Shown one piece after another: positions 12,853-46,052 of a DNA stretch of 64,000 bases. The first letter of the stretch is position 1; every line of letters starts with the position of its first letter. The stretch covers positions 74,334,186 to 74,398,185 of the forward strand of contig OU342630.1 in assembly GCA_910589415.1 (NCBI GenBank), in the 5' to 3' direction. The position numbers were made by a program, and so were the translations under genes. The stretch is from Malachius bipustulatus (Eukaryota > Arthropoda > Insecta > Coleoptera > Melyridae). The notes under the pieces were generated by a model. That model saw only the letters and a list, made by a program, of their open reading frames with translations, ran no database searches and was not told where the DNA came from.

Positions 12853-13948
12853 GTGAGCGATATTTCTACGATAACGTGTGGGTGATGTTTCTACTATCTA
12901 TAATTTATTAGATATCATTAAGTTTGTACAAAAATGAGGACATAATTATTGACTTTTATATAGTTTCGTTTTATTCGGTAAATTACTCAAGTATATATAG
13001 GTACCTAAACTCTAAACTCTACTTTTTTCGTTTGAAGTAGGTATATCTACCCGTCATTACGGATTTTTACTTCACTTCACATACTACCTATATTCAAATA
13101 ATAAATTCTTTTGTATAGTACCTATGTGAATAAAAAGATAGCATTGTAGTGTGCTGATGAGTACAAAAATAGGAGAAACATCGATATCCGTATCTCTACA
13201 GATACGGAAAAAACAACTTGTTTCATATACCGTACAAATTAATATATTTTCAATTCAAATAATGATTTTTTTAATAATGTTAGTAGGTATACCTTATTAT
13301 CAATTATAAAGCAAAAGGTTTATAACAGATAATATCTACATTATGCTCTTATTATCTAGAATCTTGATGTCCTTTAAAATTACTAGGGGTTATAAGAAAA
13401 ATGGCGAACCTAAGATATTGATTTTTAAATTCAAAAAACAAAGAAATCAATTGAGGTTGACCAAGTGGTGGGTATATTAAAAAAAAAGTCAAAATTATAG
13501 CGTCCAGATATATACCCTTGGCAAGTATCTACTAAAGCGTTATTCTTTTTCCAAGCAATTTAATTTATTCCTTCAAAAAACACACTGTATACCTTAAAAT
13601 GTACCTACTTTCATAATCATTATTATGAGGATTTCCTGGATGCCATTAGATGTCTCCTTGTACTTTGTTTGTATTCAATACTCATCGGGCTACTTTATAC
13701 CTTTTACTCGTGCTCCATCAAGAAATTGACCTTAATAATGGTTCAGTCGATATCTAATAATGTTTTTACGGCATGTTTTCATAAATTTTTAATAAGAATA
13801 CTTAGAACCAATATGTACGCAAGGGCTAGGCGTTTTCCGACTTCAACCAACGTTTAGTAACTTAGCAGTAGTCTAGACGCTCAGAAGTGCATTAGATAAT
13901 ATATAGGTATTCTTGACCTGGCCCTGTTCGCGAAGAGATTATTCAAAT
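12853..13948. other. SNMP-to-GPx spacer
   Basis: The SNMP donor GTGAGC at 12853 opens into this region, but no exon coding the expected downstream CD36 residues can be read on the plus strand before the GPx gene. An ATATATAGG TATA-like string near 13899 lies about 50 bp before the GPx start codon and could belong to its promoter. Confidence 0.45.
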
Positions 13949-14455
13949 ATGGGGAACCCAGAAAATTATAAGGACGCAAAATCAATTTACGAATTCAGTG
14001 CGAAAGATATTAAAGGCAATTTAGTTCCGATGGAAAATTACAGAGGCCATGTATGCATAATTGTAAACGTGGCTTCAAATTGCGGTTTTACCGACTCAAA
14101 TTACGAGGAATTAAACGCATTGTATAAAGATTATGCGGAAACAAAGGGTTTGAGAATATTGGCTTTTCCTTGCAACCAGTTTGCTGGTCAAGAACCTGGA
14201 TCGAACGAGGAAATTTGCCAATTTGTCGTCGGTAGAAAAGTCGCATTTGACGTATTTGAGAAAGTCAATGTTAACGGGAGTGATAGTCATCCGTTGTATA
14301 AGTTTTTAAAATTAAAGCAAGGAGGAGTCCTGGGTGATTTCATTAAATGGAACTTCACTAAGTTTATTATCGATAAAAATGGTCAGCCTGTGGAGAGACA
14401 TGGGCCGAATGTAAGCCCCAAGGAGCTCGTCGAATTTCTTGAGAAATATTGGTAA
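13949..14455 (+). CDS. GPx: Glutathione peroxidase (Cys type, thioredoxin-dependent class), 168 aa
   Basis: A single-exon gene for a small GPx that reduces hydroperoxides. The peroxidatic residue is Cys45 in NVASNCGFT (a normal Cys codon, not selenocysteine TGA). The tetrad is completed by Gln81 after FPCNQF, and by Trp134 and Asn135 in KWNFTKF. Cys90 in SNEEICQFV is where thioredoxin-dependent insect GPx enzymes carry the resolving cysteine. Length is normal for a cytosolic monomeric PHGPx/GPx4-like protein, with no signal peptide. The frame is open upstream to an ATG at 13913, but the start at 13949 gives the family's usual N-terminus. It lies 1.1 kb after the last visible SNMP exon on the same strand. 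Lack of introns could mean an old retrocopy, but there is no poly(A) tail, and the second GPx in the window is also intronless in this domain. Confidence 0.93.
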   Translation: MGNPENYKDAKSIYEFSAKDIKGNLVPMENYRGHVCIIVNVASNCGFTDSNYEELNALYKDYAETKGLRILAFPCNQFAGQEPGSNEEICQFVVGRKVAFDVFEKVNVNGSDSHPLYKFLKLKQGGVLGDFIKWNFTKFIIDKNGQPVERHGPNVSPKELVEFLEKYW

Positions 14456-18059: not shown

Positions 18060-18085
18060 ATATATATATATATATATATATATAT
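18060..18085. repeat. (TA)n tract, left border of the satellite
   Basis: A pure TA dinucleotide run directly abutting the first satellite monomer. The matching (AT)n run is at 36080-36096. Confidence 0.9.
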
Positions 18086-21000
18086 AATGATGATGTTAAT
18101 GAGCGCAAAGAATTAAAAATTCAAAATAAAATTTAACGGGCATATCGCTCTAACCTAGGGCTTCCTGAGGCAGACCTGACACACAGAGCCATCCAGTCAT
18201 CTCGAAGCTGCAGACAACGTTGTTTCGGTCTCTTAGACCTCATCAGTACAGCACATCGAGAAATAACTAGAGGATGCATGCCAGGCCAGCACAGGAAGCC
18301 AACTATATGAATAAAGAGGTGACACGGAACTCCGTGACCTCAATAGTTGGTTGCCATCTACCGACGGAGACAAGAACTAAACGGCAGCACGCTACCAGCT
18401 TTGTGTCCATCAGGAATAGGCAGCCCACAGTTCGGGGCATTACCATCCGTCGGGCGGTGCTGGTTAGCTACCGATAGATGTCTCTCGCCAAAGCCCATGG
18501 TTATTACAATAATAATGATGATGTTAATGAGCGCAAAGAATTAAAAATTCAAAATAAAATTTAACGGGCATATCGCTCTAACCTAGGGCTTCCTGAGGCA
18601 GACCTGACACACAGAGCCATCCAGTCATCTCGAAGCTGCAGACAACGTTGTTTCGGTCTCTTAGACCTCATCAGTACAGCACATCGAGAAATAACTAGAG
18701 GATGCATGCCAGGCCAGCACAGGAAGCCAACTATATGAATAAAGAGGTGACACGGAACTCCGTGACCTCAATAGTTGGTTGCCATCTACCGACGGAGACA
18801 AGAACTAAACGGCAGCACGCTACCAGCTTTGTGTCCATCAGGAATAGGCAGCCCACAATTCGGGGCATTACCATCCGTCGGGCGGTGCTGGTTAGCTACC
18901 GATAGATGTCTCTCGCCAAAGCCCATGGTTATTACAATAATAATGATGATGTTAATGAGCGCAAAGAATTAAAAATTCAAAATAAAATTTAACGGGCATA
19001 TCGCTCTAACCTAGGGCTTCCTGAGGCAGACCTGACACACAGAGCCATCCAGTCATCTCGAAGCTGCAGACAACGTTGTTTCGGTCTCTTAGACCTCATC
19101 AGTACAGCACATCGAGAAATAACTAGAGGATGCATGCCAGGCCAGCACAGGAAGCCAACTATATGAATAAAGAGGTGACACGGAACTCCGTGACCTCAAT
19201 AGTTGGTTGCCATCTACCGACGGAGACAAGAACTAAACGGCAGCACGCTACCAGCTTTGTGTCCATCAGGAATAGGCAGCCCACAATTCGGGGCATTACC
19301 ATCCGTCGGGCGGTGCTGGTTAGCTACCGATAGATGTCTCTCGCCAAAGCCCATGGTTATTACAATAATAATGATGATGTTAATGAGCGCAAAGAATTAA
19401 AAATTCAAAATAAAATTTAACGGGCATATCGCTCTAACCTAGGGCTTCCTGAGGCAGACCTGACACACAGAGCCATCCAGTCATCTCGAAGCTGCAGACA
19501 ACGTTGTTTCGGTCTCTTAGACCTCATCAGTACAGCACATCGAGAAATAACTAGAGGATGCATGCCAGGCCAGCACAGGAAGCCAACTATATGAATAAAG
19601 AGGTGACACGGAACTCCGTGACCTCAATAGTTGGTTGCCATCTACCGACGGAGACAAGAACTAAACGGCAGCACGCTACCAGCTTTGTGTCCATCAGGAA
19701 TAGGCAGCCCACAATTCGGGGCATTACCATCCGTCGGGCGGTGCTGGTTAGCTACCGATAGATGTCTCTCGCCAAAGCCCATGGTTATTACAATAATAAT
19801 GATGATGTTAATGAGCGCAAAGAATTAAAAATTCAAAATAAAATTTAACGGGCATATCGCTCTAACCTAGGGCTTCCTGAGGCAGACCTGACACACAGAG
19901 CCATCCAGTCATCTCGAAGCTGCAGACAACGTTGTTTCGGTCTCTTAGACCTCATCAGTACAGCACATCGAGAAATAACTAGAGGATGCATGCCAGGCCA
20001 GCACAGGAAGCCAACTATATGAATAAAGAGGTGACACGGAACTCCGTGACCTCAATAGTTGGTTGCCATCTACCGACGGAGACAAGAACTAAACGGCAGC
20101 ACGCTACCAGCTTTGTGTCCATCAGGAATAGGCAGCCCACAATTCGGGGCATTACCATCCGTCGGGCGGTGCTGGTTAGCTACCGATAGATGTCTCTCGC
20201 CAAAGCCCATGGTTATTACAATAATAATGATGATGTTAATGAGCGCAAAGAATTAAAAATTCAAAATAAAATTTAACGGGCATATCGCTCTAACCTAGGG
20301 CTTCCTGAGGCAGACCTGACACACAGAGCCATCCAGTCATCTCGAAGCTGCAGACAACGTTGTTTCGGTCTCTTAGACCTCATCAGTACAGCACATCGAG
20401 AAATAACTAGAGGATGCATGCCAGGCCAGCACAGGAAGCCAACTATATGAATAAAGAGGTGACACGGAACTCCGTGACCTCAATAGTTGGTTGCCATCTA
20501 CCGACGGAGACAAGAACTAAACGGCAGCACGCTACCAGCTTTGTGTCCATCAGGAATAGGCAGCCCACAATTCGGGGCATTACCATCCGTCGGGCGGTGC
20601 TGGTTAGCTACCGATAGATGTCTCTCGCCAAAGCCCATGGTTATTACAATAATAATGATGATGTTAATGAGCGCAAAGAATTAAAAATTCAAAATAAAAT
20701 TTAACGGGCATATCGCTCTAACCTAGGGCTTCCTGAGGCAGACCTGACACACAGAGCCATCCAGTCATCTCGAAGCTGCAGACAACGTTGTTTCGGTCTC
20801 TTAGACCTCATCAGTACAGCACATCGAGAAATAACTAGAGGATGCATGCCAGGCCAGCACAGGAAGCCAACTATATGAATAAAGAGGTGACACGGAACTC
20901 CGTGACCTCAATAGTTGGTTGCCATCTACCGACGGAGACAAGAACTAAACGGCAGCACGCTACCAGCTTTGTGTCCATCAGGAATAGGCAGCCCACAATT

Positions 21001-24000
21001 CGGGGCATTACCATCCGTCGGGCGGTGCTGGTTAGCTACCGATAGATGTCTCTCGCCAAAGCCCATGGTTATTACAATAATAATGATGATGTTAATGAGC
21101 GCAAAGAATTAAAAATTCAAAATAAAATTTAACGGGCATATCGCTCTAACCTAGGGCTTCCTGAGGCAGACCTGACACACAGAGCCATCCAGTCATCTCG
21201 AAGCTGCAGACAACGTTGTTTCGGTCTCTTAGACCTCATCAGTACAGCACATCGAGAAATAACTAGAGGATGCATGCCAGGCCAGCACAGGAAGCCAACT
21301 ATATGAATAAAGAGGTGACACGGAACTCCGTGACCTCAATAGTTGGTTGCCATCTACCGACGGAGACAAGAACTAAACGGCAGCACGCTACCAGCTTTGT
21401 GTCCATCAGGAATAGGCAGCCCACAATTCGGGGCATTACCATCCGTCGGGCGGTGCTGGTTAGCTACCGATAGATGTCTCTCGCCAAAGCCCATGGTTAT
21501 TACAATAATAATGATGATGTTAATGAGCGCAAAGAATTAAAAATTCAAAATAAAATTTAACGGGCATATCGCTCTAACCTAGGGCTTCCTGAGGCAGACC
21601 TGACACACAGAGCCATCCAGTCATCTCGAAGCTGCAGACAACGTTGTTTCGGTCTCTTAGACCTCATCAGTACAGCACATCGAGAAATAACTAGAGGATG
21701 CATGCCAGGCCAGCACAGGAAGCCAACTATATGAATAAAGAGGTGACACGGAACTCCGTGACCTCAATAGTTGGTTGCCATCTACCGACGGAGACAAGAA
21801 CTAAACGGCAGCACGCTACCAGCTTTGTGTCCATCAGGAATAGGCAGCCCACAATTCGGGGCATTACCATCCGTCGGGCGGTGCTGGTTAGCTACCGATA
21901 GATGTCTCTCGCCAAAGCCCATGGTTATTACAATAATAATGATGATGTTAATGAGCGCAAAGAATTAAAAATTCAAAATAAAATTTAACGGGCATATCGC
22001 TCTAACCTAGGGCTTCCTGAGGCAGACCTGACACACAGAGCCATCCAGTCATCTCGAAGCTGCAGACAACGTTGTTTCGGTCTCTTAGACCTCATCAGTA
22101 CAGCACATCGAGAAATAACTAGAGGATGCATGCCAGGCCAGCACAGGAAGCCAACTATATGAATAAAGAGGTGACACGGAACTCCGTGACCTCAATAGTT
22201 GGTTGCCATCTACCGACGGAGACAAGAACTAAACGGCAGCACGCTACCAGCTTTGTGTCCATCAGGAATAGGCAGCCCACAATTCGGGGCATTACCATCC
22301 GTCGGGCGGTGCTGGTTAGCTACCGATAGATGTCTCTCGCCAAAGCCCATGGTTATTACAATAATAATGATGATGTTAATGAGCGCAAAGAATTAAAAAT
22401 TCAAAATAAAATTTAACGGGCATATCGCTCTAACCTAGGGCTTCCTGAGGCAGACCTGACACACAGAGCCATCCAGTCATCTCGAAGCTGCAGACAACGT
22501 TGTTTCGGTCTCTTAGACCTCATCAGTACAGCACATCGAGAAATAACTAGAGGATGCATGCCAGGCCAGCACAGGAAGCCAACTATATGAATAAAGAGGT
22601 GACACGGAACTCCGTGACCTCAATAGTTGGTTGCCATCTACCGACGGAGACAAGAACTAAACGGCAGCACGCTACCAGCTTTGTGTCCATCAGGAATAGG
22701 CAGCCCACAATTCGGGGCATTACCATCCGTCGGGCGGTGCTGGTTAGCTACCGATAGATGTCTCTCGCCAAAGCCCATGGTTATTACAATAATAATGATG
22801 ATGTTAATGAGCGCAAAGAATTAAAAATTCAAAATAAAATTTAACGGGCATATCGCTCTAACCTAGGGCTTCCTGAGGCAGACCTGACACACAGAGCCAT
22901 CCAGTCATCTCGAAGCTGCAGACAACGTTGTTTCGGTCTCTTAGACCTCATCAGTACAGCACATCGAGAAATAACTAGAGGATGCATGCCAGGCCAGCAC
23001 AGGAAGCCAACTATATGAATAAAGAGGTGACACGGAACTCCGTGACCTCAATAGTTGGTTGCCATCTACCGACGGAGACAAGAACTAAACGGCAGCACGC
23101 TACCAGCTTTGTGTCCATCAGGAATAGGCAGCCCACAATTCGGGGCATTACCATCCGTCGGGCGGTGCTGGTTAGCTACCGATAGATGTCTCTCGCCAAA
23201 GCCCATGGTTATTACAATAATAATGATGATGTTAATGAGCGCAAAGAATTAAAAATTCAAAATAAAATTTAACGGGCATATCGCTCTAACCTAGGGCTTC
23301 CTGAGGCAGACCTGACACACAGAGCCATCCAGTCATCTCGAAGCTGCAGACAACGTTGTTTCGGTCTCTTAGACCTCATCAGTACAGCACATCGAGAAAT
23401 AACTAGAGGATGCATGCCAGGCCAGCACAGGAAGCCAACTATATGAATAAAGAGGTGACACGGAACTCCGTGACCTCAATAGTTGGTTGCCATCTACCGA
23501 CGGAGACAAGAACTAAACGGCAGCACGCTACCAGCTTTGTGTCCATCAGGAATAGGCAGCCCACAATTCGGGGCATTACCATCCGTCGGGCGGTGCTGGT
23601 TAGCTACCGATAGATGTCTCTCGCCAAAGCCCATGGTTATTACAATAATAATGATGATGTTAATGAGCGCAAAGAATTAAAAATTCAAAATAAAATTTAA
23701 CGGGCATATCGCTCTAACCTAGGGCTTCCTGAGGCAGACCTGACACACAGAGCCATCCAGTCATCTCGAAGCTGCAGACAACGTTGTTTCGGTCTCTTAG
23801 ACCTCATCAGTACAGCACATCGAGAAATAACTAGAGGATGCATGCCAGGCCAGCACAGGAAGCCAACTATATGAATAAAGAGGTGACACGGAACTCCGTG
23901 ACCTCAATAGTTGGTTGCCATCTACCGACGGAGACAAGAACTAAACGGCAGCACGCTACCAGCTTTGTGTCCATCAGGAATAGGCAGCCCACAATTCGGG

Positions 24001-26858
24001 GCATTACCATCCGTCGGGCGGTGCTGGTTAGCTACCGATAGATGTCTCTCGCCAAAGCCCATGGTTATTACAATAATAATGATGATGTTAATGAGCGCAA
24101 AGAATTAAAAATTCAAAATAAAATTTAACGGGCATATCGCTCTAACCTAGGGCTTCCTGAGGCAGACCTGACACACAGAGCCATCCAGTCATCTCGAAGC
24201 TGCAGACAACGTTGTTTCGGTCTCTTAGACCTCATCAGTACAGCACATCGAGAAATAACTAGAGGATGCATGCCAGGCCAGCACAGGAAGCCAACTATAT
24301 GAATAAAGAGGTGACACGGAACTCCGTGACCTCAATAGTTGGTTGCCATCTACCGACGGAGACAAGAACTAAACGGCAGCACGCTACCAGCTTTGTGTCC
24401 ATCAGGAATAGGCAGCCCACAATTCGGGGCATTACCATCCGTCGGGCGGTGCTGGTTAGCTACCGATAGATGTCTCTCGCCAAAGCCCATGGTTATTACA
24501 ATAATAATGATGATGTTAATGAGCGCAAAGAATTAAAAATTCAAAATAAAATTTAACGGGCATATCGCTCTAACCTAGGGCTTCCTGAGGCAGACCTGAC
24601 ACACAGAGCCATCCAGTCATCTCGAAGCTGCAGACAACGTTGTTTCGGTCTCTTAGACCTCATCAGTACAGCACATCGAGAAATAACTAGAGGATGCATG
24701 CCAGGCCAGCACAGGAAGCCAACTATATGAATAAAGAGGTGACACGGAACTCCGTGACCTCAATAGTTGGTTGCCATCTACCGACGGAGACAAGAACTAA
24801 ACGGCAGCACGCTACCAGCTTTGTGTCCATCAGGAATAGGCAGCCCACAATTCGGGGCATTACCATCCGTCGGGCGGTGCTGGTTAGCTACCGATAGATG
24901 TCTCTCGCCAAAGCCCATGGTTATTACAATAATAATGATGATGTTAATGAGCGCAAAGAATTAAAAATTCAAAATAAAATTTAACGGGCATATCGCTCTA
25001 ACCTAGGGCTTCCTGAGGCAGACCTGACACACAGAGCCATCCAGTCATCTCGAAGCTGCAGACAACGTTGTTTCGGTCTCTTAGACCTCATCAGTACAGC
25101 ACATCGAGAAATAACTAGAGGATGCATGCCAGGCCAGCACAGGAAGCCAACTATATGAATAAAGAGGTGACACGGAACTCCGTGACCTCAATAGTTGGTT
25201 GCCATCTACCGACGGAGACAAGAACTAAACGGCAGCACGCTACCAGCTTTGTGTCCATCAGGAATAGGCAGCCCACAATTCGGGGCATTACCATCCGTCG
25301 GGCGGTGCTGGTTAGCTACCGATAGATGTCTCTCGCCAAAGCCCATGGTTATTACAATAATAATGATGATGTTAATGAGCGCAAAGAATTAAAAATTCAA
25401 AATAAAATTTAACGGGCATATCGCTCTAACCTAGGGCTTCCTGAGGCAGACCTGACACACAGAGCCATCCAGTCATCTCGAAGCTGCAGACAACGTTGTT
25501 TCGGTCTCTTAGACCTCATCAGTACAGCACATCGAGAAATAACTAGAGGATGCATGCCAGGCCAGCACAGGAAGCCAACTATATGAATAAAGAGGTGACA
25601 CGGAACTCCGTGACCTCAATAGTTGGTTGCCATCTACCGACGGAGACAAGAACTAAACGGCAGCACGCTACCAGCTTTGTGTCCATCAGGAATAGGCAGC
25701 CCACAATTCGGGGCATTACCATCCGTCGGGCGGTGCTGGTTAGCTACCGATAGATGTCTCTCGCCAAAGCCCATGGTTATTACAATAATAATGATGATGT
25801 TAATGAGCGCAAAGAATTAAAAATTCAAAATAAAATTTAACGGGCATATCGCTCTAACCTAGGGCTTCCTGAGGCAGACCTGACACACAGAGCCATCCAG
25901 TCATCTCGAAGCTGCAGACAACGTTGTTTCGGTCTCTTAGACCTCATCAGTACAGCACATCGAGAAATAACTAGAGGATGCATGCCAGGCCAGCACAGGA
26001 AGCCAACTATATGAATAAAGAGGTGACACGGAACTCCGTGACCTCAATAGTTGGTTGCCATCTACCGACGGAGACAAGAACTAAACGGCAGCACGCTACC
26101 AGCTTTGTGTCCATCAGGAATAGGCAGCCCACAATTCGGGGCATTACCATCCGTCGGGCGGTGCTGGTTAGCTACCGATAGATGTCTCTCGCCAAAGCCC
26201 ATGGTTATTACAATAATAATGATGATGTTAATGAGCGCAAAGAATTAAAAATTCAAAATAAAATTTAACGGGCATATCGCTCTAACCTAGGGCTTCCTGA
26301 GGCAGACCTGACACACAGAGCCATCCAGTCATCTCGAAGCTGCAGACAACGTTGTTTCGGTCTCTTAGACCTCATCAGTACAGCACATCGAGAAATAACT
26401 AGAGGATGCATGCCAGGCCAGCACAGGAAGCCAACTATATGAATAAAGAGGTGACACGGAACTCCGTGACCTCAATAGTTGGTTGCCATCTACCGACGGA
26501 GACAAGAACTAAACGGCAGCACGCTACCAGCTTTGTGTCCATCAGGAATAGGCAGCCCACAATTCGGGGCATTACCATCCGTCGGGCGGTGCTGGTTAGC
26601 TACCGATAGATGTCTCTCGCCAAAGCCCATGGTTATTACAATAATAATGATGATGTTAATGAGCGCAAAGAATTAAAAATTCAAAATAAAATTTAACGGG
26701 CATATCGCTCTAACCTAGGGCTTCCTGAGGCAGACCTGACACACAGAGCCATCCAGTCATCTCGAAGCTGCAGACAACGTTGTTTCGGTCTCTTAGACCT
26801 CATCAGTACAGCACATCGAGAAATAACTAGAGGATGCATGCCAGGCCAGCACAGGAAA
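18086..26858 (-). repeat. 428-bp hammerhead satellite, left array (about 20.5 monomers)
   Basis: Head-to-tail copies repeat exactly every 428 bp (for example, the block GGATGCATGCCAGGCCAGC recurs at 18270, 18698 and so on). Copies are almost identical: the only difference noticed is G at 18430 in the first monomer where later ones have A. The strand given is that of the ribozyme. Each monomer also contains a long imperfect hairpin (CCAACTAT ... ATAGTTGG enclosing GAGGT/ACCTC and ACGGA/TCCGT arms) and an AT-rich end. The repeating 65- and 67-codon ORFs are by-products of the repetition, not genes. Confidence 0.97.
26760..26821 (-). ncRNA. Hammerhead ribozyme (type I), representative copy of the left array
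   Basis: The exact mirror of the right-array ribozyme, read on the minus strand. Copies recur at 18200 + 428k, k = 0 to 20, giving 21 copies here and about 43 in the window. All copies I compared keep the CTGATGA and GAAA boxes and both strands of stems I-III. Confidence 0.92.
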
Positions 26859-26918
26859 CCAACTATTGAGGTCACGGAGTTCCGTGTCACCTCTTTATTC
26901 ATATAGTTGGCTTCCTGT
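26851..26918. repeat. Inversion junction between the two satellite arrays
   Basis: ACAGGAA (26851-26857) pairs with TTCCTGT (26912-26918), and CCAACTAT (26859-26866) with ATAGTTGG (26903-26910), around a 36-nt loop that itself contains CACGGA/TCCGTG. The switch of orientation falls in the CCAACTAT arm, which already occurs in both orientations inside every monomer, so the junction used an 8-bp inverted repeat of the monomer. The only new mismatch is A26858 against C26911. Confidence 0.85.
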
Positions 26919-29900
26919 GCTGGCCTGGCATGCATCCTCTAGTTATTTCTCGATGTGCTGTACTGATGAGGTCTAAGAGACCGAAACAACGTTGTCTGCA
27001 GCTTCGAGATGACTGGATGGCTCTGTGTGTCAGGTCTGCCTCAGGAAGCCCTAGGTTAGAGCGATATGCCCGTTAAATTTTATTTTGAATTTTTAATTCT
27101 TTGCGCTCATTAACATCATCATTATTATTGTAATAACCATGGGCTTTGGCGAGAGACATCTATCGGTAGCTAACCAGCACCGCCCGACGGATGGTAATGC
27201 CCCGAATTGTGGGCTGCCTATTCCTGATGGACACAAAGCTGGTAGCGTGCTGCCGTTTAGTTCTTGTCTCCGTCGGTAGATGGCAACCAACTATTGAGGT
27301 CACGGAGTTCCGTGTCACCTCTTTATTCATATAGTTGGCTTCCTGTGCTGGCCTGGCATGCATCCTCTAGTTATTTCTCGATGTGCTGTACTGATGAGGT
27401 CTAAGAGACCGAAACAACGTTGTCTGCAGCTTCGAGATGACTGGATGGCTCTGTGTGTCAGGTCTGCCTCAGGAAGCCCTAGGTTAGAGCGATATGCCCG
27501 TTAAATTTTATTTTGAATTTTTAATTCTTTGCGCTCATTAACATCATCATTATTATTGTAATAACCATGGGCTTTGGCGAGAGACATCTATCGGTAGCTA
27601 ACCAGCACCGCCCGACGGATGGTAATGCCCCGAATTGTGGGCTGCCTATTCCTGATGGACACAAAGCTGGTAGCGTGCTGCCGTTTAGTTCTTGTCTCCG
27701 TCGGTAGATGGCAACCAACTATTGAGGTCACGGAGTTCCGTGTCACCTCTTTATTCATATAGTTGGCTTCCTGTGCTGGCCTGGCATGCATCCTCTAGTT
27801 ATTTCTCGATGTGCTGTACTGATGAGGTCTAAGAGACCGAAACAACGTTGTCTGCAGCTTCGAGATGACTGGATGGCTCTGTGTGTCAGGTCTGCCTCAG
27901 GAAGCCCTAGGTTAGAGCGATATGCCCGTTAAATTTTATTTTGAATTTTTAATTCTTTGCGCTCATTAACATCATCATTATTATTGTAATAACCATGGGC
28001 TTTGGCGAGAGACATCTATCGGTAGCTAACCAGCACCGCCCGACGGATGGTAATGCCCCGAATTGTGGGCTGCCTATTCCTGATGGACACAAAGCTGGTA
28101 GCGTGCTGCCGTTTAGTTCTTGTCTCCGTCGGTAGATGGCAACCAACTATTGAGGTCACGGAGTTCCGTGTCACCTCTTTATTCATATAGTTGGCTTCCT
28201 GTGCTGGCCTGGCATGCATCCTCTAGTTATTTCTCGATGTGCTGTACTGATGAGGTCTAAGAGACCGAAACAACGTTGTCTGCAGCTTCGAGATGACTGG
28301 ATGGCTCTGTGTGTCAGGTCTGCCTCAGGAAGCCCTAGGTTAGAGCGATATGCCCGTTAAATTTTATTTTGAATTTTTAATTCTTTGCGCTCATTAACAT
28401 CATCATTATTATTGTAATAACCATGGGCTTTGGCGAGAGACATCTATCGGTAGCTAACCAGCACCGCCCGACGGATGGTAATGCCCCGAATTGTGGGCTG
28501 CCTATTCCTGATGGACACAAAGCTGGTAGCGTGCTGCCGTTTAGTTCTTGTCTCCGTCGGTAGATGGCAACCAACTATTGAGGTCACGGAGTTCCGTGTC
28601 ACCTCTTTATTCATATAGTTGGCTTCCTGTGCTGGCCTGGCATGCATCCTCTAGTTATTTCTCGATGTGCTGTACTGATGAGGTCTAAGAGACCGAAACA
28701 ACGTTGTCTGCAGCTTCGAGATGACTGGATGGCTCTGTGTGTCAGGTCTGCCTCAGGAAGCCCTAGGTTAGAGCGATATGCCCGTTAAATTTTATTTTGA
28801 ATTTTTAATTCTTTGCGCTCATTAACATCATCATTATTATTGTAATAACCATGGGCTTTGGCGAGAGACATCTATCGGTAGCTAACCAGCACCGCCCGAC
28901 GGATGGTAATGCCCCGAATTGTGGGCTGCCTATTCCTGATGGACACAAAGCTGGTAGCGTGCTGCCGTTTAGTTCTTGTCTCCGTCGGTAGATGGCAACC
29001 AACTATTGAGGTCACGGAGTTCCGTGTCACCTCTTTATTCATATAGTTGGCTTCCTGTGCTGGCCTGGCATGCATCCTCTAGTTATTTCTCGATGTGCTG
29101 TACTGATGAGGTCTAAGAGACCGAAACAACGTTGTCTGCAGCTTCGAGATGACTGGATGGCTCTGTGTGTCAGGTCTGCCTCAGGAAGCCCTAGGTTAGA
29201 GCGATATGCCCGTTAAATTTTATTTTGAATTTTTAATTCTTTGCGCTCATTAACATCATCATTATTATTGTAATAACCATGGGCTTTGGCGAGAGACATC
29301 TATCGGTAGCTAACCAGCACCGCCCGACGGATGGTAATGCCCCGAATTGTGGGCTGCCTATTCCTGATGGACACAAAGCTGGTAGCGTGCTGCCGTTTAG
29401 TTCTTGTCTCCGTCGGTAGATGGCAACCAACTATTGAGGTCACGGAGTTCCGTGTCACCTCTTTATTCATATAGTTGGCTTCCTGTGCTGGCCTGGCATG
29501 CATCCTCTAGTTATTTCTCGATGTGCTGTACTGATGAGGTCTAAGAGACCGAAACAACGTTGTCTGCAGCTTCGAGATGACTGGATGGCTCTGTGTGTCA
29601 GGTCTGCCTCAGGAAGCCCTAGGTTAGAGCGATATGCCCGTTAAATTTTATTTTGAATTTTTAATTCTTTGCGCTCATTAACATCATCATTATTATTGTA
29701 ATAACCATGGGCTTTGGCGAGAGACATCTATCGGTAGCTAACCAGCACCGCCCGACGGATGGTAATGCCCCGAATTGTGGGCTGCCTATTCCTGATGGAC
29801 ACAAAGCTGGTAGCGTGCTGCCGTTTAGTTCTTGTCTCCGTCGGTAGATGGCAACCAACTATTGAGGTCACGGAGTTCCGTGTCACCTCTTTATTCATAT

Positions 29901-32900
29901 AGTTGGCTTCCTGTGCTGGCCTGGCATGCATCCTCTAGTTATTTCTCGATGTGCTGTACTGATGAGGTCTAAGAGACCGAAACAACGTTGTCTGCAGCTT
30001 CGAGATGACTGGATGGCTCTGTGTGTCAGGTCTGCCTCAGGAAGCCCTAGGTTAGAGCGATATGCCCGTTAAATTTTATTTTGAATTTTTAATTCTTTGC
30101 GCTCATTAACATCATCATTATTATTGTAATAACCATGGGCTTTGGCGAGAGACATCTATCGGTAGCTAACCAGCACCGCCCGACGGATGGTAATGCCCCG
30201 AATTGTGGGCTGCCTATTCCTGATGGACACAAAGCTGGTAGCGTGCTGCCGTTTAGTTCTTGTCTCCGTCGGTAGATGGCAACCAACTATTGAGGTCACG
30301 GAGTTCCGTGTCACCTCTTTATTCATATAGTTGGCTTCCTGTGCTGGCCTGGCATGCATCCTCTAGTTATTTCTCGATGTGCTGTACTGATGAGGTCTAA
30401 GAGACCGAAACAACGTTGTCTGCAGCTTCGAGATGACTGGATGGCTCTGTGTGTCAGGTCTGCCTCAGGAAGCCCTAGGTTAGAGCGATATGCCCGTTAA
30501 ATTTTATTTTGAATTTTTAATTCTTTGCGCTCATTAACATCATCATTATTATTGTAATAACCATGGGCTTTGGCGAGAGACATCTATCGGTAGCTAACCA
30601 GCACCGCCCGACGGATGGTAATGCCCCGAATTGTGGGCTGCCTATTCCTGATGGACACAAAGCTGGTAGCGTGCTGCCGTTTAGTTCTTGTCTCCGTCGG
30701 TAGATGGCAACCAACTATTGAGGTCACGGAGTTCCGTGTCACCTCTTTATTCATATAGTTGGCTTCCTGTGCTGGCCTGGCATGCATCCTCTAGTTATTT
30801 CTCGATGTGCTGTACTGATGAGGTCTAAGAGACCGAAACAACGTTGTCTGCAGCTTCGAGATGACTGGATGGCTCTGTGTGTCAGGTCTGCCTCAGGAAG
30901 CCCTAGGTTAGAGCGATATGCCCGTTAAATTTTATTTTGAATTTTTAATTCTTTGCGCTCATTAACATCATCATTATTATTGTAATAACCATGGGCTTTG
31001 GCGAGAGACATCTATCGGTAGCTAACCAGCACCGCCCGACGGATGGTAATGCCCCGAATTGTGGGCTGCCTATTCCTGATGGACACAAAGCTGGTAGCGT
31101 GCTGCCGTTTAGTTCTTGTCTCCGTCGGTAGATGGCAACCAACTATTGAGGTCACGGAGTTCCGTGTCACCTCTTTATTCATATAGTTGGCTTCCTGTGC
31201 TGGCCTGGCATGCATCCTCTAGTTATTTCTCGATGTGCTGTACTGATGAGGTCTAAGAGACCGAAACAACGTTGTCTGCAGCTTCGAGATGACTGGATGG
31301 CTCTGTGTGTCAGGTCTGCCTCAGGAAGCCCTAGGTTAGAGCGATATGCCCGTTAAATTTTATTTTGAATTTTTAATTCTTTGCGCTCATTAACATCATC
31401 ATTATTATTGTAATAACCATGGGCTTTGGCGAGAGACATCTATCGGTAGCTAACCAGCACCGCCCGACGGATGGTAATGCCCCGAATTGTGGGCTGCCTA
31501 TTCCTGATGGACACAAAGCTGGTAGCGTGCTGCCGTTTAGTTCTTGTCTCCGTCGGTAGATGGCAACCAACTATTGAGGTCACGGAGTTCCGTGTCACCT
31601 CTTTATTCATATAGTTGGCTTCCTGTGCTGGCCTGGCATGCATCCTCTAGTTATTTCTCGATGTGCTGTACTGATGAGGTCTAAGAGACCGAAACAACGT
31701 TGTCTGCAGCTTCGAGATGACTGGATGGCTCTGTGTGTCAGGTCTGCCTCAGGAAGCCCTAGGTTAGAGCGATATGCCCGTTAAATTTTATTTTGAATTT
31801 TTAATTCTTTGCGCTCATTAACATCATCATTATTATTGTAATAACCATGGGCTTTGGCGAGAGACATCTATCGGTAGCTAACCAGCACCACCCGACGGAT
31901 GGTAATGCCCCGAATTGTGGGCTGCCTATTCCTGATGGACACAAAGCTGGTAGCGTGCTGCCGTTTAGTTCTTGTCTCCGTCGGTAGATGGCAACCAACT
32001 ATTGAGGTCACGGAGTTCCGTGTCACCTCTTTATTCATATAGTTGGCTTCCTGTGCTGGCCTGGCATGCATCCTCTAGTTATTTCTCGATGTGCTGTACT
32101 GATGAGGTCTAAGAGACCGAAACAACGTTGTCTGCAGCTTCGAGATGACTGGATGGCTCTGTGTGTCAGGTCTGCCTCAGGAAGCCCTAGGTTAGAGCGA
32201 TATGCCCGTTAAATTTTATTTTGAATTTTTAATTCTTTGCGCTCATTAACATCATCATTATTATTGTAATAACCATGGGCTTTGGCGAGAGACATCTATC
32301 GGTAGCTAACCAGCACCGCCCGACGGATGGTAATGCCCCGAATTGTGGGCTGCCTATTCCTGATGGACACAAAGCTGGTAGCGTGCTGCCGTTTAGTTCT
32401 TGTCTCCGTCGGTAGATGGCAACCAACTATTGAGGTCACGGAGTTCCGTGTCACCTCTTTATTCATATAGTTGGCTTCCTGTGCTGGCCTGGCATGCATC
32501 CTCTAGTTATTTCTCGATGTGCTGTACTGATGAGGTCTAAGAGACCGAAACAACGTTGTCTGCAGCTTCGAGATGACTGGATGGCTCTGTGTGTCTGGTC
32601 TGCCTCAGGAAGCCCTAGGTTAGAGCGATATGCCCGTTAAATTTTATTTTGAATTTTTAATTCTTTGCGCTCATTAACATCATCATTATTATTGTAATAA
32701 CCATGGGCTTTGGCGAGAGACATCTATCGGTAGCTAACCAGCACCGCCCGACGGATGGTAATGCCCCGAATTGTGGGCTGCCTATTCCTGATGGACACAA
32801 AGCTGGTAGCGTGCTGCCGTTTAGTTCTTGTCTCCGTCGGTAGATGGCAACCAACTATTGAGGTCACGGAGTTCCGTGTCACCTCTTTATTCATATAGTT

Positions 32901-35900
32901 GGCTTCCTGTGCTGGCCTGGCATGCATCCTCTAGTTATTTCTCGATGTGCTGTACTGATGAGGTCTAAGAGACCGAAACAACGTTGTCTGCAGCTTCGAG
33001 ATGACTGGATGGCTCTGTGTGTCAGGTCTGCCTCAGGAAGCCCTAGGTTAGAGCGATATGCCCGTTAAATTTTATTTTGAATTTTTAATTCTTTGCGCTC
33101 ATTAACATCATCATTATTATTGTAATAACCATGGGCTTTGGCGAGAGACATCTATCGGTAGCTAACCAGCACCGCCCGACGGATGGTAATGCCCCGAATT
33201 GTGGGCTGCCTATTCCTGATGGACACAAAGCTGGTAGCGTGCTGCCGTTTAGTTCTTGTCTCCGTCGGTAGATGGCAACCAACTATTGAGGTCACGGAGT
33301 TCCGTGTCACCTCTTTATTCATATAGTTGGCTTCCTGTGCTGGCCTGGCATGCATCCTCTAGTTATTTCTCGATGTGCTGTACTGATGAGGTCTAAGAGA
33401 CCGAAACAACGTTGTCTGCAGCTTCGAGATGACTGGATGGCTCTGTGTGTCAGGTCTGCCTCAGGAAGCCCTAGGTTAGAGCGATATGCCCGTTAAATTT
33501 TATTTTGAATTTTTAATTCTTTGCGCTCATTAACATCATCATTATTATTGTAATAACCATGGGCTTTGGCGAGAGACATCTATCGGTAGCTAACCAGCAC
33601 CGCCCGACGGATGGTAATGCCCCGAATTGTGGGCTGCCTATTCCTGATGGACACAAAGCTGGTAGCGTGCTGCCGTTTAGTTCTTGTCTCCGTCGGTAGA
33701 TGGCAACCAACTATTGAGGTCACGGAGTTCCGTGTCACCTCTTTATTCATATAGTTGGCTTCCTGTGCTGGCCTGGCATGCATCCTCTAGTTATTTCTCG
33801 ATGTGCTGTACTGATGAGGTCTAAGAGACCGAAACAACGTTGTCTGCAGCTTCGAGATGACTGGATGGCTCTGTGTGTCAGGTCTGCCTCAGGAAGCCCT
33901 AGGTTAGAGCGATATGCCCGTTAAATTTTATTTTGAATTTTTAATTCTTTGCGCTCATTAACATCATCATTATTATTGTAATAACCATGGGCTTTGGCGA
34001 GAGACATCTATCGGTAGCTAACCAGCACCGCCCGACGGATGGTAATGCCCCGAATTGTGGGCTGCCTATTCCTGATGGACACAAAGCTGGTAGCGTGCTG
34101 CCGTTTAGTTCTTGTCTCCGTCGGTAGATGGCAACCAACTATTGAGGTCACGGAGTTCCGTGTCACCTCTTTATTCATATAGTTGGCTTCCTGTGCTGGC
34201 CTGGCATGCATCCTCTAGTTATTTCTCGATGTGCTGTACTGATGAGGTCTAAGAGACCGAAACAACGTTGTCTGCAGCTTCGAGATGACTGGATGGCTCT
34301 GTGTGTCAGGTCTGCCTCAGGAAGCCCTAGGTTAGAGCGATATGCCCGTTAAATTTTATTTTGAATTTTTAATTCTTTGCGCTCATTAACATCATCATTA
34401 TTATTGTAATAACCATGGGCTTTGGCGAGAGACATCTATCGGTAGCTAACCAGCACCGCCCGACGGATGGTAATGCCCCGAATTGTGGGCTGCCTATTCC
34501 TGATGGACACAAAGCTGGTAGCGTGCTGCCGTTTAGTTCTTGTCTCCGTCGGTAGATGGCAACCAACTATTGAGGTCACGGAGTTCCGTGTCACCTCTTT
34601 ATTCATATAGTTGGCTTCCTGTGCTGGCCTGGCATGCATCCTCTAGTTATTTCTCGATGTGCTGTACTGATGAGGTCTAAGAGACCGAAACAACGTTGTC
34701 TGCAGCTTCGAGATGACTGGATGGCTCTGTGTGTCAGGTCTGCCTCAGGAAGCCCTAGGTTAGAGCGATATGCCCGTTAAATTTTATTTTGAATTTTTAA
34801 TTCTTTGCGCTCATTAACATCATCATTATTATTGTAATAACCATGGGCTTTGGCGAGAGACATCTATCGGTAGCTAACCAGCACCGCCCGACGGATGGTA
34901 ATGCCCCGAATTGTGGGCTGCCTATTCCTGATGGACACAAAGCTGGTAGCGTGCTGCCGTTTAGTTCTTGTCTCCGTCGGTAGATGGCAACCAACTATTG
35001 AGGTCACGGAGTTCCGTGTCACCTCTTTATTCATATAGTTGGCTTCCTGTGCTGGCCTGGCATGCATCCTCTAGTTATTTCTCGATGTGCTGTACTGATG
35101 AGGTCTAAGAGACCGAAACAACGTTGTCTGCAGCTTCGAGATGACTGGATGGCTCTGTGTGTCAGGTCTGCCTCAGGAAGCCCTAGGTTAGAGCGATATG
35201 CCCGTTAAATTTTATTTTGAATTTTTAATTCTTTGCGCTCATTAACATCATCATTATTATTGTAATAACCATGGGCTTTGGCGAGAGACATCTATCGGTA
35301 GCTAACCAGCACCGCCCGACGGATGGTAATGCCCCGAATTGTGGGCTGCCTATTCCTGATGGACACAAAGCTGGTAGCGTGCTGCCGTTTAGTTCTTGTC
35401 TCCGTCGGTAGATGGCAACCAACTATTGAGGTCACGGAGTTCCGTGTCACCTCTTTATTCATATAGTTGGCTTCCTGTGCTGGCCTGGCATGCATCCTCT
35501 AGTTATTTCTCGATGTGCTGTACTGATGAGGTCTAAGAGACCGAAACAACGTTGTCTGCAGCTTCGAGATGACTGGATGGCTCTGTGTGTCAGGTCTGCC
35601 TCAGGAAGCCCTAGGTTAGAGCGATATGCCCGTTAAATTTTATTTTGAATTTTTAATTCTTTGCGCTCATTAACATCATCATTATTATTGTAATAACCAT
35701 GGGCTTTGGCGAGAGACATCTATCGGTAGCTAACCAGCACCGCCCGACGGATGGTAATGCCCCGAATTGTGGGCTGCCTATTCCTGATGGACACAAAGCT
35801 GGTAGCGTGCTGCCGTTTAGTTCTTGTCTCCGTCGGTAGATGGCAACCAACTATTGAGGTCACGGAGTTCCGTGTCACCTCTTTATTCATATAGTTGGCT

Positions 35901-36079
35901 TCCTGTGCTGGCCTGGCATGCATCCTCTAGTTATTTCTCGATGTGCTGTACTGATGAGGTCTAAGAGACCGAAACAACGTTGTCTGCAGCTTCGAGATGA
36001 CTGGATGGCTCTGTGTGTCAGGTCTGCCTCAGGAAGCCCTAGGTTAGAGCGATATGCCCGTTAAATTTTATTTTGAATT
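26859..36079 (+). repeat. 428-bp hammerhead satellite, right array (about 21.5 monomers, inverted)
   Basis: The same monomer in the opposite orientation, again with an exact 428-bp period. Two isolated substitutions are visible: A for G at 31890 and T for A at 32596. The array ends in the AT-rich part of the monomer, against an (AT)n run at 36080-36096. Together with the left array it forms a near-perfect palindrome centred at about 26884/26885. Confidence 0.97.
26948..27009 (+). ncRNA. Hammerhead ribozyme (type I), representative copy of the right array
   Basis: All core parts are present in order. Stem I 5' strand: TCTCG (26948-26952), a 4-nt internal loop, GCTGTA (26957-26962). Conserved CTGATGA: 26963-26969. 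Stem II: GGTCT/AGACC with loop AAG (26970-26982). GAAA: 26983-26986. Stem III: ACAAC/GTTGT (26986-26995). Cleavage is expected after C26996 (GTC). Stem I 3' strand: TGCAGC (26997-27002), TT, CGAGA (27005-27009). The stem I internal loop and the stem II loop could make the tertiary contact typical of natural hammerheads. Stem III has little or no loop, as in known satellite and retrozyme ribozymes that act best as dimers. Copies recur at 26948 + 428k, k = 0 to 21. Confidence 0.92.
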
Positions 36080-36096
36080 TATATATATATATATAT
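36080..36096. repeat. (AT)n tract, right border of the satellite
   Basis: A pure AT dinucleotide run continuing into the element X sequence (CTCCAAAATCACG). Confidence 0.85.
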
Positions 36097-36097
36097 T

Positions 36098-42585: not shown

Positions 42586-44145
42586 TACAATACAATACAA
42601 TACAATACAAATTCCTTTATTGTACATACTTGAATTACAACATTCATTGCTTAGTACACAGCGTTATTACAGAAATCAAAAAAAAAATACAAAGACAAAA
42701 AAAAACGCACATCAAGTCAAACACATAAACACATAACACCGGCAACAATGAGAGTCGAGGCGCCATGCAGAGACACTAAAGACATCAGGTCTCAATTATT
42801 GAGGTATGGTTCCAACTATATGATAAGGATGGATCAAAGCTGAGGGTTTTAGGTATTTTAATATCAGTCTGTAGGTAGGGATGGGGGGTGGAAGGACAGT
42901 ATATCAGAGCAGGTAGTGTATGGTTCCAACTCCGTGAGACGGTTCCGGAGATATGCCCTGTACGCTGAGAACCCACCAGTTGCAAGATCTATTTTGAACT
43001 GGTCCAGGTATTTGATAGATGCGTACGTGAATGTTCTTTCTAAAGACGATAGATGGTGTGTAGGAGGTTGGAACAAATTGAACCTGGTACTGTAGTGATA
43101 GATGAATCGAAAAGGTAAAAGTTTATCCTTATTTTTGTGGATCAGTTTGAGTAGAGCGAAGAGAAGAGAAGCTGCACGGACAATCCTGCCAGGATCCTAA
43201 TCGCTCTCTTTTGAAGAAGAAAAATCCTTCGGAGAGGTCTCTCAGATCCACCCCAGACGGCCAGCCCATAGGTCACGTGGCTGATCAAATGCCCATAATA
43301 AGCATAGAGAAGATCCTCATGTGACACCGTGTGCCGAAGGCGTATGAGAAGGAAGCAGACACTAGCAAGGCGACGGCATAAATGATAAGCCTAAAAACTT
43401 TACGACACCCTTCGGCTCGATCCAGGCACCGTCGATGGGAATGGAGGGTAAAGGGGGAAGACATGAACGGCTAGATTGAAAATCAATCATCTCAGTTTTC
43501 TCCAAGTTGAGTTTTAGTTTATTGCCCCTGAGCCATAAAGATGCTGTTTTCAATGGAAATTCTACCAGACTAGGAAGAGCGCCTGGTTTTATCCTAATGA
43601 GAATTGTTGTATCATCAGCATAGTTAACACAGAGTGAATTAGGGGAGGTAATTTTGGGTCCAGGTCGTTAATGAAGATAAAGGAAAAGAAGTGGACCGAG
43701 AACAATACCCTGTGGCACCCCAGAGGAGATTTGACCAAAGGTGATCACACAGCTCGGCCATCAGACCCAGTAATCTGAACCGCCTGTGCATGTTCTTCCC
43801 TGTAGGTAGTTGGTAAACCAATAAAGGGGCTATGCACGAACTCCGACATTCTCCAGTTTCCGAAGGAGGCGCTGGTGGCACACACTGTTGAAGGCCTTGG
43901 AGAGATCCAAAAGCCACCCCACAGTGCGCATTCCCTCCTCCAAACTGATCTGTTTTTAAGAAAAACATGCTGGGAGCGGGAAAGGATCTCTGTCTTGTCT
44001 AGGAAGTCAAAAAGAGACGAGACAAGGGATTCAAGAATTTTATCAAATACCGATAGCAGACTAATAGGTCGGTAGTTTTCAGGATTTTTGACGCCACCCT
44101 TTGTTATTAAAAGGTGATCAGTGATAAGTATTTCCAATGTGGAAG
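42586..44145 (-). pseudogene. 5'-truncated non-LTR retrotransposon (jockey/CR1-like reverse transcriptase)
   Basis: On the minus strand, reverse-transcriptase motifs occur in order: NPENYRPISLLSVFDKILES (about 44100-44040), then GVPQGIVLGPLLF (about 43715-43675), YADDTTILIR (about 43625-43595), and a C-terminal thumb-like part with YGHLISHVTYGLAVWG and LQKRAIRILAG (about 43300-43190). Frames change several times. The 3' end is a (TTGTA)n tail at 42586-42611. The 5' part is missing. A shorter copy of the same segment (about 51306-51480) accompanies the second UGT duplicon, so this insertion predates the UGT duplication. Confidence 0.8.
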
Positions 44146-44155
44146 CAAGGACCTA

Positions 44156-44161: not shown

Positions 44162-46052
44162 TACTCATTCTTCTCTTTTGATCTCTTGAATCCAATTACA
44201 AAGCACTTAACCAGAAACTTAACCAGAAATTTTATAAAAAAATACAAAAGACAAAAAATAAGCATAACCATAAAAAATAGAAATGCAATGACATCTAATA
44301 AGAAAAACTGATACAGTGGAATATTTTGGCTAGGATTCTTTAGATGTTCTGCTCCTTTATTTCTGATAACATATTCAGTCCACCAGACTGCCTCGTCGAT
44401 TCCAGTCATTGGTCTATCGTGCAAAAGTTTGCCCATTTTTATAGAATTTTCCTTATATCTATAAATAATAAATTGATAGAATAGAAATTAGCTCCCTTTG
44501 AGTTTCCCTAATATAAAAAACTTCGAGGACTTACTTGGGATTATTGATGACCTCCTTAATGCCCTCCGTTAAACTTTCCTTACTTATATTATCTTTATTT
44601 AATTCAATTCCAACGCCTCGTTTAACTATCCTTTTAACATAATAATGTTGATCGCCAGAGAATGGAATTCCAAGAACTGGAACCCCGAAAGTAAGAGCTT
44701 CTTCTAAAGATTGTAGACCGCCTTGAGTTATAAAAAGTTTAATGTTGGGGTGTCCTAGAATTTCAAACCTATTATGTTATTTAATTATTATTATTAAAAA
44801 TAATTATTGTGAACTAATTGCGGCTTTTCACTCATCAGTAGACTGTGATGAAACTTACTTAAAATGTCCTGTTGGGGAAACCATTTCTTTACTTTTATAT
44901 TTGAAGGTATGTCACAATAAGACATTTCGTGGACATCACATTTCCACAAAACCTTATACGGAAGCTCTTTGAAAGTCCATAATATTTTCAATACCGTAAT
45001 ACCGCATGAAAAAGGACACTTCACATTCGTTCCTAAACTGAAGTAAATCACGCCATCCGTCGCTTCATCAAGAAAATTTTTAAGTTCCTATAAATAATAA
45101 TGGTAAGACTTTAATAACGATGAATGAGTAATTTAGGAAAGTTAAATATGTGTAATCGTACCTCAGGAAGATTCTTGGGAGGTTGTATGTGAATACCATC
45201 CCCAATTGATATCGTATTTGGATTCAGTGGTCGTATCAACGTCAAAACAGGATTTGTATTGGTAAATAGCATACTCATATTCTTATGTAAATCTCGAATT
45301 GGTGGTAATTCGGGACCAAAATATTTATGAAGTATTGTCTGAATGTCACTATAGAAATAATTAGTTTCTAAATAAACTACATAGATTGAAGTAATGACCG
45401 TTTGGATTACTCTGTCTTTGAAGGATAAATTTTCTAAATCATCATAAGGAAGAGTAATGTCGGGAAACAATACGGGATGTATTGGATTATTTAAATCATA
45501 ATGGATAGTAAATGGAGGATCTAGGGATGTTATCCCTATAGAAGGGCATTTAAAATGCCAGGCCAAAGGAACACACAAAGGAAATATATCTTCAAATATT
45601 ACGAGATCAAAATGTACACTTTCGTTGTGGATAAGATTTTGTATAGAAGGAGTCTGGTATAAAACATCAACACTTTCCTTGAATACATTCTTAAGAATTT
45701 TACTAGTTTTAAAAATATTTGTGTTTTTATTGTTAATTAGTTCAAAAACTTTAGACTTTTTGAAACCCTTTGCTGTCTCACTGATATCAATATATTTCGG
45801 ATTTTCTGATGATTTATTTACTGGGAGAGTAGTTGCAACTGTAACTTGATGGCCTCTTGAAGACAATTTTTCCCATAACGGCATAAAAGTTGCTTGATGG
45901 GCATAAAACGGAGAAGGTATAATACCAAGTATGTTAGCACTGTTTGCCTCTTCTATATAAGATGAAAAACTCGTTACCAACAAAATAACCACACAATATT
46001 TACACCTATCACACATTTTCATTAAACACGTTCTACTTCTAGATGAAAACAA
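44161..46052 (-). CDS. UGT: UDP-glycosyltransferase, copy 1 (four exons, about 535 aa)
   Basis: Exons 46052-45162 (likely start at 46022), 45087-44859, 44754-44535 and 44458-44161 join in frame with GT-AG borders. It conjugates lipophilic substrates with a sugar from UDP-sugar in the ER lumen. Seen: a signal peptide (CVVILLVTSFSSYIEEANS), a catalytic-type His42 in PSPFYAHQA, and an acidic partner in FDLVIFED. The donor-binding signature runs from WFPQQDIL through FITQGGLQS to VPVLGIPFSGDQ. A C-terminal membrane helix (LLDVIAFLFFMVMLIF) is followed by a basic tail ending KEKNE, an ER-retention-type KxKxx. The start at 46022 (MKMCD) is preferred because copy 2 starts there. Length is normal for the family. 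The upstream AT-rich region is shared with copy 2. I see no defect. Confidence 0.93.

Follow-up and report, generated by a model that had tools for sequence, protein, structure and literature searches.

How does an 18-kb array, in which one ribozyme-bearing unit is repeated first on one strand and then on the other, come to lie within a run of TA dinucleotides? The question is raised by a 64,000-nucleotide stretch of the genome of the beetle Malachius bipustulatus (assembly GCA_910589415.1, contig OU342630.1, positions 74,334,186 to 74,398,185 of the forward strand), referred to here in its full length as the window. A preliminary description of the window, made from its letters alone, had reported a retrozyme-like satellite of about 43 monomers of 428 bp, each carrying a complete hammerhead ribozyme, and had listed minus-strand and plus-strand copies as two facts. 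Both strands do carry copies, and the two facts are really one: Tandem Repeats Finder gave a period of 428 at 18084-26866 (20.5 copies) and at 26857-36080 (21.6 copies), with 99% matches, and both arms face away from a center near 26857, making a single head-to-head palindrome of 428-bp units (GC content of 0.472). By exact extension the arms overlap by ~1 bp at the junction (26857), where the two inner ends are the two sides of an inverted repeat inside the unit (Table 1, which also gives the unit numbering used below). Because both outer arm ends are fused to the TA run of a dispersed host repeat, the whole 18 kb is an insertion into that run; the window array is one palindromic insertion in a (TA)n run.

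All 544,256,285 bases of the assembly (52 contigs) were searched with a 34-nt ribozyme core, allowing up to 3 mismatches, which returned 333 forward and 334 reverse matches (reversed control of the core: 0 matches in the genome). Thirty-seven fetched stretches plus the window resolved into 34 sites, as L033/L034, L038/L039 and L040-L042 each proved to be one site. A minus arm was followed by a plus arm in 32 of the 34, and the reverse order was found in none. A one-stranded array of 423-bp units at C1:38.3 Mb (L038/L039) was dropped as a counterexample to the palindrome rule, because the sequence to its left, where the other arm would be expected, consists of N. Every two-armed site (32/32) had one outer end at unit positions 84-102 (end A) and the other at 128-141 (end B). 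A search for the end pattern in TA runs, whose listed matches reach as far as contig C6, gave at least 79 ends; among the matches listed there were 28 pairs and 23 unpaired ends, and all 28 pairs were mixed A/B, with B on the left in 15 and A on the left in 13. Twenty of these pairs were fetched sites and the other 8 were additional, so that the A/B rule was kept in 40/40 distinct two-ended sites, in all of which the minus arm lay left and the plus arm right. The target was similarly constant: (TA)n flanked both sides in 29 of the 32 two-armed sites, the common host repeat was recognized on at least one side in 23 of the 32, and 195 exact, uninterrupted empty sites of the form CCTGCCCACG-(AT)n-TTTCTCCAAAATC were found elsewhere in the genome. 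Two sites (L010 and L043) lay outside TA runs, with short repeated target letters of ~6-11 nt as judged by eye.

Two local irregularities were recorded among these sites. At C6:36.12-36.13 Mb (L033 and L034) the plus arm is interrupted at unit position 223 and resumes ~11 kb further on at position 217, the pattern that insertion of another element with a 7-bp duplication would leave, and a 52-nt unit fragment ending at B (L025:2187-2238) lies next to a main array and is perhaps a very short separate insertion.

A pair of internal ends 30-40 nt apart, corresponding to the genomic "tail" of Penelope-like elements (PLEs), together with an AT-rich target, is what would be expected of a non-autonomous PLE, and PLEs are present in the same genome. 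A search for the GIY-YIG domain returned at least 150 hits (first 150 by score), several of them in frames of 823-855 aa. Among the matches listed, these fell into 78 clusters, of which 55 were one-stranded (mostly single hits) and 23 two-stranded; 21 of the two-stranded clusters ran minus then plus; one, where two element families adjoin, ran minus-plus-minus-plus, and one, composed of two families judging by score, ran plus-minus. One partial PLE frame carried a GIY-YIG domain (E = 3.4e-06) and, by eye, a YVDD motif, though RVT_1 was not called in it. Minimal hammerheads were found in pieces of the pseudo-long terminal repeats (pLTRs) of five PLE families. In the family with an 841-aa frame, two sites had left/right ends at reference positions 1176/1134 and 1132/1176, fused to TA runs, and a third had its right end at 1174 (its left side is interrupted in the piece examined). 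With the predicted hammerhead cut of this family after position 1048, the starts would lie 84-86 and 126-128 nt downstream, near the distances of 84-102 and 128-141 nt in the retrozyme unit. Position searches for the same family yielded 6 A and 15 B places, that is, 5 pairs and 11 unpaired places (10 of them B); each of the 5 pairs comprised one A and one B, with the left end minus and the right end plus. The retrozyme unit works like a PLE and is probably driven by one. Two further PLE loci were noted: an array at C11:3382-82839 (G000) of at least 6 minus then at least 18 plus copies with ~3327-bp spacing, nearly all with an 833-aa open reading frame (ORF), and a partial PLE frame ~1 kb from a retrozyme array (L020:7126-8190).

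We consider it probable, at roughly 70%, that a PLE reverse transcriptase (RT), primed from both strands of a cut TA-rich target, rolled round one ribozyme-made RNA circle and left behind a head-to-head palindrome with two fixed ends. In this scheme the plus strand would be transcribed, cut by its hammerheads and closed to a 428-nt circle, and a PLE protein would make cuts in the two strands of a (TA)n run. The 3′ ends so released would then each prime first-strand synthesis at an internal site, A for one strand and B, ~33 nt away, for the other. The fixed ends are directly observed; priming at A and B is what we infer from them. Both polymerases, moving in a common direction, would make several laps of one and the same circle and yield a pair of tandem arms with equal polarity and similar lengths, and the two complementary DNA ends would be joined in the middle at variable points to give minus arm, junction and plus arm. 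The closest biochemical parallel is PAc, a PLE of the lizard Anolis carolinensis that has been purified and that cuts and extends both strands of its target with a preference for AT-rich DNA (Frangieh et al. 2024, PMC11167929; this and the other cited papers are drawn on here for the portions of their text that were available). PAc, a predicted dimer, begins reverse transcription at two neighboring positions within its RNA, and the sequence separating these positions is the genomic PLE "tail" (PMC11167929); that paper places the cut 26 bp inside the ORF and the start at 111-118, from which we calculate a cut-to-start distance of 85-92 nt. The retrozyme resembles it, as far as that account goes, in its two adjacent predicted internal starts, AT-rich target and hammerhead upstream at a similar distance, alongside the cutting and extension of both strands documented for PAc. 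In contrast, PAc is protein-coding and was assayed on short linear RNA, whereas the unit here is non-coding and occurs in up to 28 copies per arm, with the two start sites divided between the arms at every two-ended site.

The evidence for a single circle comes from comparison of the two arms of each site. Arm lengths were compared at 30 sites (L009, with an insertion in an arm, and L043, with a 63-nt arm, were left out). They agreed to within one unit at 23 of 30 sites (shuffle mean, 8.0; 0/20,000 shuffles reached 23) and, where both arms exceeded two units, at 12 of 18 (shuffle mean, 4.5; 0/20,000 reached 12), with Spearman correlations of 0.79 and 0.48, respectively. The agreement extends to arms of up to 28 near-identical units (12 kb), as at C1:40.5 Mb, where the arms measure 12026 and 12055 bp. 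In a hand-coded test of 26 typed sites (L009, L013, L014, L043, L044 and L045 left out), both arms had a common haplotype in 25 (shuffle mean discordance, 16.6), and outside this test private variants were common to both arms in L009, L013 and mostly in L044. The sole discordant site (L037; 211C in 2/2 units of one arm versus 82del in 12/12 and 229C in 11/11 of the other) is at the same time the site whose arms differ most in length (+9.2 units). Two polymerases sharing one circle, with A given a 33-nt lead over B and neither passing the other, would keep the difference in arm length (A-B) at roughly -33 to +395 nt; the observed difference fell within -65 to +450 nt at 22 of 30 sites and within the mirror-image range at 9 (P = 0.0023 by a sign test, 15 to 2, which was devised after the lengths had been seen and uses lengths that later recombination can alter). 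Because arm lengths agree, haplotypes agree and A-B differences mostly respect the no-passing bound, one circle per site is favored. A more specific version, in which the two RTs of one PLE particle travel on the same circle in lockstep, B 33 nt behind A and without overtaking, producing a palindrome of up to 24 kb per insertion event, is put forward tentatively, at slightly worse than an even chance.

Among the alternatives, the one that fares best, though we regard it as unlikely, keeps the PLE reaction from both strands and changes the template to a linear multimeric RNA, i.e., an uncut tandem transcript. It gains from the lizard element, for which hammerhead mutants inserted like the wild type and unprocessed RNA was termed the dominant substrate (PMC11167929, in the text available), and from the spacing of the inner ends, which lie ≤40 nt apart at 11 of 30 sites (5.7 expected; P = 0.017), as if the two had run off a common 5′ end. 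However, arms of 28 units (12 kb) would need to escape every ribozyme they contain, and run-off predicts that inner ends coincide: across the 30 sites their separation in unit terms ranges from 9 to 213 nt, never falling to 8 nt or less, and is 45-213 nt at 19 of them. Inner ends created by run-off of cleaved linear RNA were rejected as well, as there was no excess at the ribozyme cut (1/60 within 10 nt; 2.9 expected). On the circular template that we prefer, the excess in the 9-40 nt range (11 sites versus 4.5 expected) could reflect one enzyme halted at the back of the other.

Self-priming is considerably less probable. Here one arm would be reverse transcribed, and its end would fold back and copy itself into a palindrome; self-priming on an antisense template has been proposed for the head-to-head PLE copies of Adineta vaga, which consist of inverted pLTRs with a 31-bp tail on one and 8-10 bp target duplications (Arkhipova et al. 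2013, PMC3846280). Those copies resemble the arrays described here, so far as the text available goes, in being inverted with an extra tail on one side, and fold-back would account for arms alike in length and haplotype, for inner ends that are sometimes close together and for a window junction that falls on an inverted repeat of the unit. Yet the B arm has ~30-50 nt of outer sequence absent from the A arm and was therefore not copied from it, the A arm is longer at 17 of 30 sites (shorter at 13) and there was not copied from the B arm, the arms of L037 carry different haplotypes, and a fixed second end is unexplained by fold-back. As the arms of a site differ in outer end, length and, in L037, haplotype, two primings on a sense template are favored over self-priming of the kind proposed for A. 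vaga.

A further alternative, very improbable, starts from a double-stranded DNA circle that is copied into a (TA)n run at a break, by break repair or in a Helitron-like manner, with end joining afterwards. (TA)n runs break easily, tandem arms suit rolling-circle copying, and the junctions resemble end joining: in the 24 sites classified (L010, L013, L014, L021, L041 and L044 were excluded because exact extension stopped at old mutations), 10 showed overlap, 3 were blunt and 11 contained 1-25 nt of filler. A role for junction microhomology was itself set aside, since overlaps of at least 1 nt, at 10/24, were no commoner than in simulated blunt joins (43%). With a DNA circle, though, either strand could serve as template and both arm polarities would be expected rather than the single arrangement at all 40 two-ended sites; nor does such a circle predict the A/B rule or the sharing of that rule with PLEs. 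Two unrelated sites (L010 and L015) have identical inner ends (209/268). Unequal exchange of ordinary satellite DNA, plus an inversion, would explain head-to-tail units of high identity, but its chance is negligible: the separate sites number in the dozens, have junctions of their own and end at the same two unit positions, in (TA)n runs with recognizable empty sites. The term satellite, which denotes one or a few head-to-tail arrays without defined insertion ends, does not describe these dispersed palindromes with fixed ends.

Returning to a PLE copying one RNA circle from both target strands, a number of observations weigh against it. The circle, self-cleavage and PLE action are all predicted, from sequence. 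Arm lengths differ by more than 1.5 units at 6 of 30 sites (L020, L028, L030, L031, L036 and L037), and L022 and L029 also fall on the wrong side of the no-passing range; later unequal exchange could be the cause of either. Site L032 has one arm, a B-ended minus arm joined directly to the TA run, and haplotypes common to both arms could alternatively stem from one master locus active at a time. Of the 16 places with PLE ends in the 841-aa family, 11 lack a partner, and the PLE arrays at C2:60.8 Mb and C3:53.6 Mb are long and one-stranded, so PLEs are not always two-armed. A blastn comparison of the unit with the pLTR pieces of the five PLE families gave no significant match (best E = 0.069), and on this comparison the unit is not called "a deleted PLE". 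For the lizard element, the published text available reports start sites that do not differ between strands, and the hammerhead mutants that insert as well as wild type count here too (PMC11167929).

The ribozyme itself was examined with a descriptor (CTGANGA, stem II of at least 4 pairs, GAAA, short stem III, UH and a stem I of 5 pairs), which matched 22 times on the plus and 21 times on the minus strand of the array, one match per 428-bp unit, with 0 matches in the window flanks and 0 in 20 Mb of one-strand first-order Markov sequence of the array's composition. The claim of a complete hammerhead in each of about 43 monomers is thus borne out, and the matches have the CUGANGA...GAAA...UH core and stems I-III, open at stem I, of a type I hammerhead. 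The covariance models on which the preliminary description had wished to see it checked gave a more qualified answer: a scan of the whole window at Rfam gathering threshold returned 0 hits, and in a 1.5-kb piece three units matched Hammerhead_HH9 (RF02275) over model positions 1-77 at 25.1 bits (E = 0.0016), below the gathering cut-off of 52, with a fourth, truncated by the end of the piece, at 20.3 bits. Covariance-model support is consequently marginal, and the descriptor carries the hammerhead case. Other hits in a sensitive Rfam scan of this piece were discarded, mir-3622 and other microRNAs being the array's own palindromic junction and CRISPR-DR and DnaX being weak. Folded as a circle, the plus (ribozyme) strand reached -149.5 kcal/mol versus a shuffle mean of -119.0 (z = -6.3; 60 shuffles), and the minus strand reached z = -4.0; the 71-nt hammerhead stretch, folded as a single strand, reached z = -2.0, with the short stem III absent from its minimum-energy structure. 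The 423-bp relative of the unit (86% identical, 56 fixed differences) has 1 of its 56 differences in the 94-nt ribozyme stretch, where 12.3 were expected (1 versus 8.5 when the 34-nt search pattern is left out; P = 0.0011), and in stem I this sole change, read by eye, replaces an A-U pair with G-U. HH9 also led to another, unrelated hammerhead family (L057-L063; 11 matches, the best at 38.7 bits, below the cut-off), with GCTCTAAAAAGAGC in stem II and a palindromic stem III; it likewise runs minus then plus in L057, L058 and L059.

The retrozyme-like part of the preliminary description is retained. In animal non-LTR retrozymes, as described, a type I hammerhead sits in tandemly repeated units 150-450 bp long, the GC content is below 50% and the genome contains PLEs as well (Cervera and de la Peña 2020, PMC7229834). 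The 428-bp units, their type I hammerhead, GC content and co-occurrence with PLEs all agree with this; as in the available text of that paper, helix III is short. Animal retrozymes are further characterized by expression as linear and circular RNA, to which the circular fold of the ribozyme strand (z = -6.3) may correspond. PLEs have been proposed as the likely helper of animal retrozymes (PMC7229834; PMC7761336). The two accounts differ in arrangement: animal retrozymes are presented as tandem repeats, without "inverted", "head-to-head" or "microsatellite" in the text available (PMC7229834), whereas in the present genome all two-ended copies are palindromes whose two ends are fixed and lie in TA runs, and no two-start-site PLE signature for retrozymes appears in the available text of PMC7229834 or PMC7761336.

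In LINE-1 twin priming, both target strands prime on one linear poly(A) RNA and an inversion results. Two-strand priming would be alike in the retrozyme, which would differ in its fixed internal starts and many laps. A literature search, mostly without subscription papers, found no report of palindromic retrozyme arrays with fixed ends. The arrays tie retrozymes to PLEs by a specific signature, two fixed starts, one per target strand, in a TA-rich target, and lend genomic support to the two-strand, two-site reaction described in vitro. They bear on how animal retrozyme RNA circles return to DNA and on PLE insertion in living cells, and they suggest a simple origin for palindromic tandem arrays, a single insertion instead of slow unequal exchange. 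If the two RTs do move in lockstep, genomic retrozyme arrays would be length-resolved records of single reverse-transcription events.

Table 1. Layout of the palindromic array and of its hammerheads (positions in the window)
Feature	Position	Strand	Details
Left (AT)n target remnant	18060..18086		In dispersed host repeat, CACCTGCCCACG adjoining on its left
Minus arm	18084..26866	-	20.52 units; outer end at unit 129 (end B); 2 mismatches versus reference unit
Outermost minus hammerhead, CTGATGA box	18240..18246	-	Period 428 bp, 21 copies
Head-to-head junction	26854..26866		BLAST inner ends: unit 335 (minus arm), unit 286 (plus arm)
Plus arm	26854..36083	+	21.57 units; outer end at unit 99 (end A); 4 mismatches versus reference unit
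First plus hammerhead	26949..27008	+	Predicted cut after 26996; period 428 bp, 22 copies
Stem I, 5′ side (first plus copy)	26949-26953 + 26957-26962	+	UGU internal loop
CTGATGA (first plus copy)	26963-26969	+	
Stem II (first plus copy)	26970-26974/26978-26982	+	AAG loop
GAAA (first plus copy)	26983-26986	+	
Stem III region (first plus copy)	26987-26994	+	
UC (first plus copy)	26995-26996	+	Predicted cut after 26996
Stem I return (first plus copy)	26997-27002 + 27004-27008	+	
Reference unit	26997..27424	+	Numbered 1-428 from predicted cut; used in all scripts
Right (TA)n target remnant	36081..36097		Followed by TTTCTCCAAAATC of the host repeat seen on the left side

Beyond the array, the window contains two glutathione peroxidase frames at 13907-14455 (+) and 60896-61903 (-), with GSHPx E values of 7.3e-42 and 1.3e-38, the latter frame having a long, charged N-terminal extension. 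Two near-identical UDP-glucuronosyltransferase-like frames at 45111-46088 (-) and 52609-53532 (-) are a recent duplication; the better named matches of the window's UDP-glucuronosyltransferase frame are from Exocentrus adspersus and Asbolus verrucosus (41-45% identity), with Rhamnusium bicolor at 33%; all three species are beetles. A DUF4817 frame at 223-591 (+) and a weak reverse-transcriptase fragment, below cut-off, at 43745-44152 (-) are mobile-element debris.
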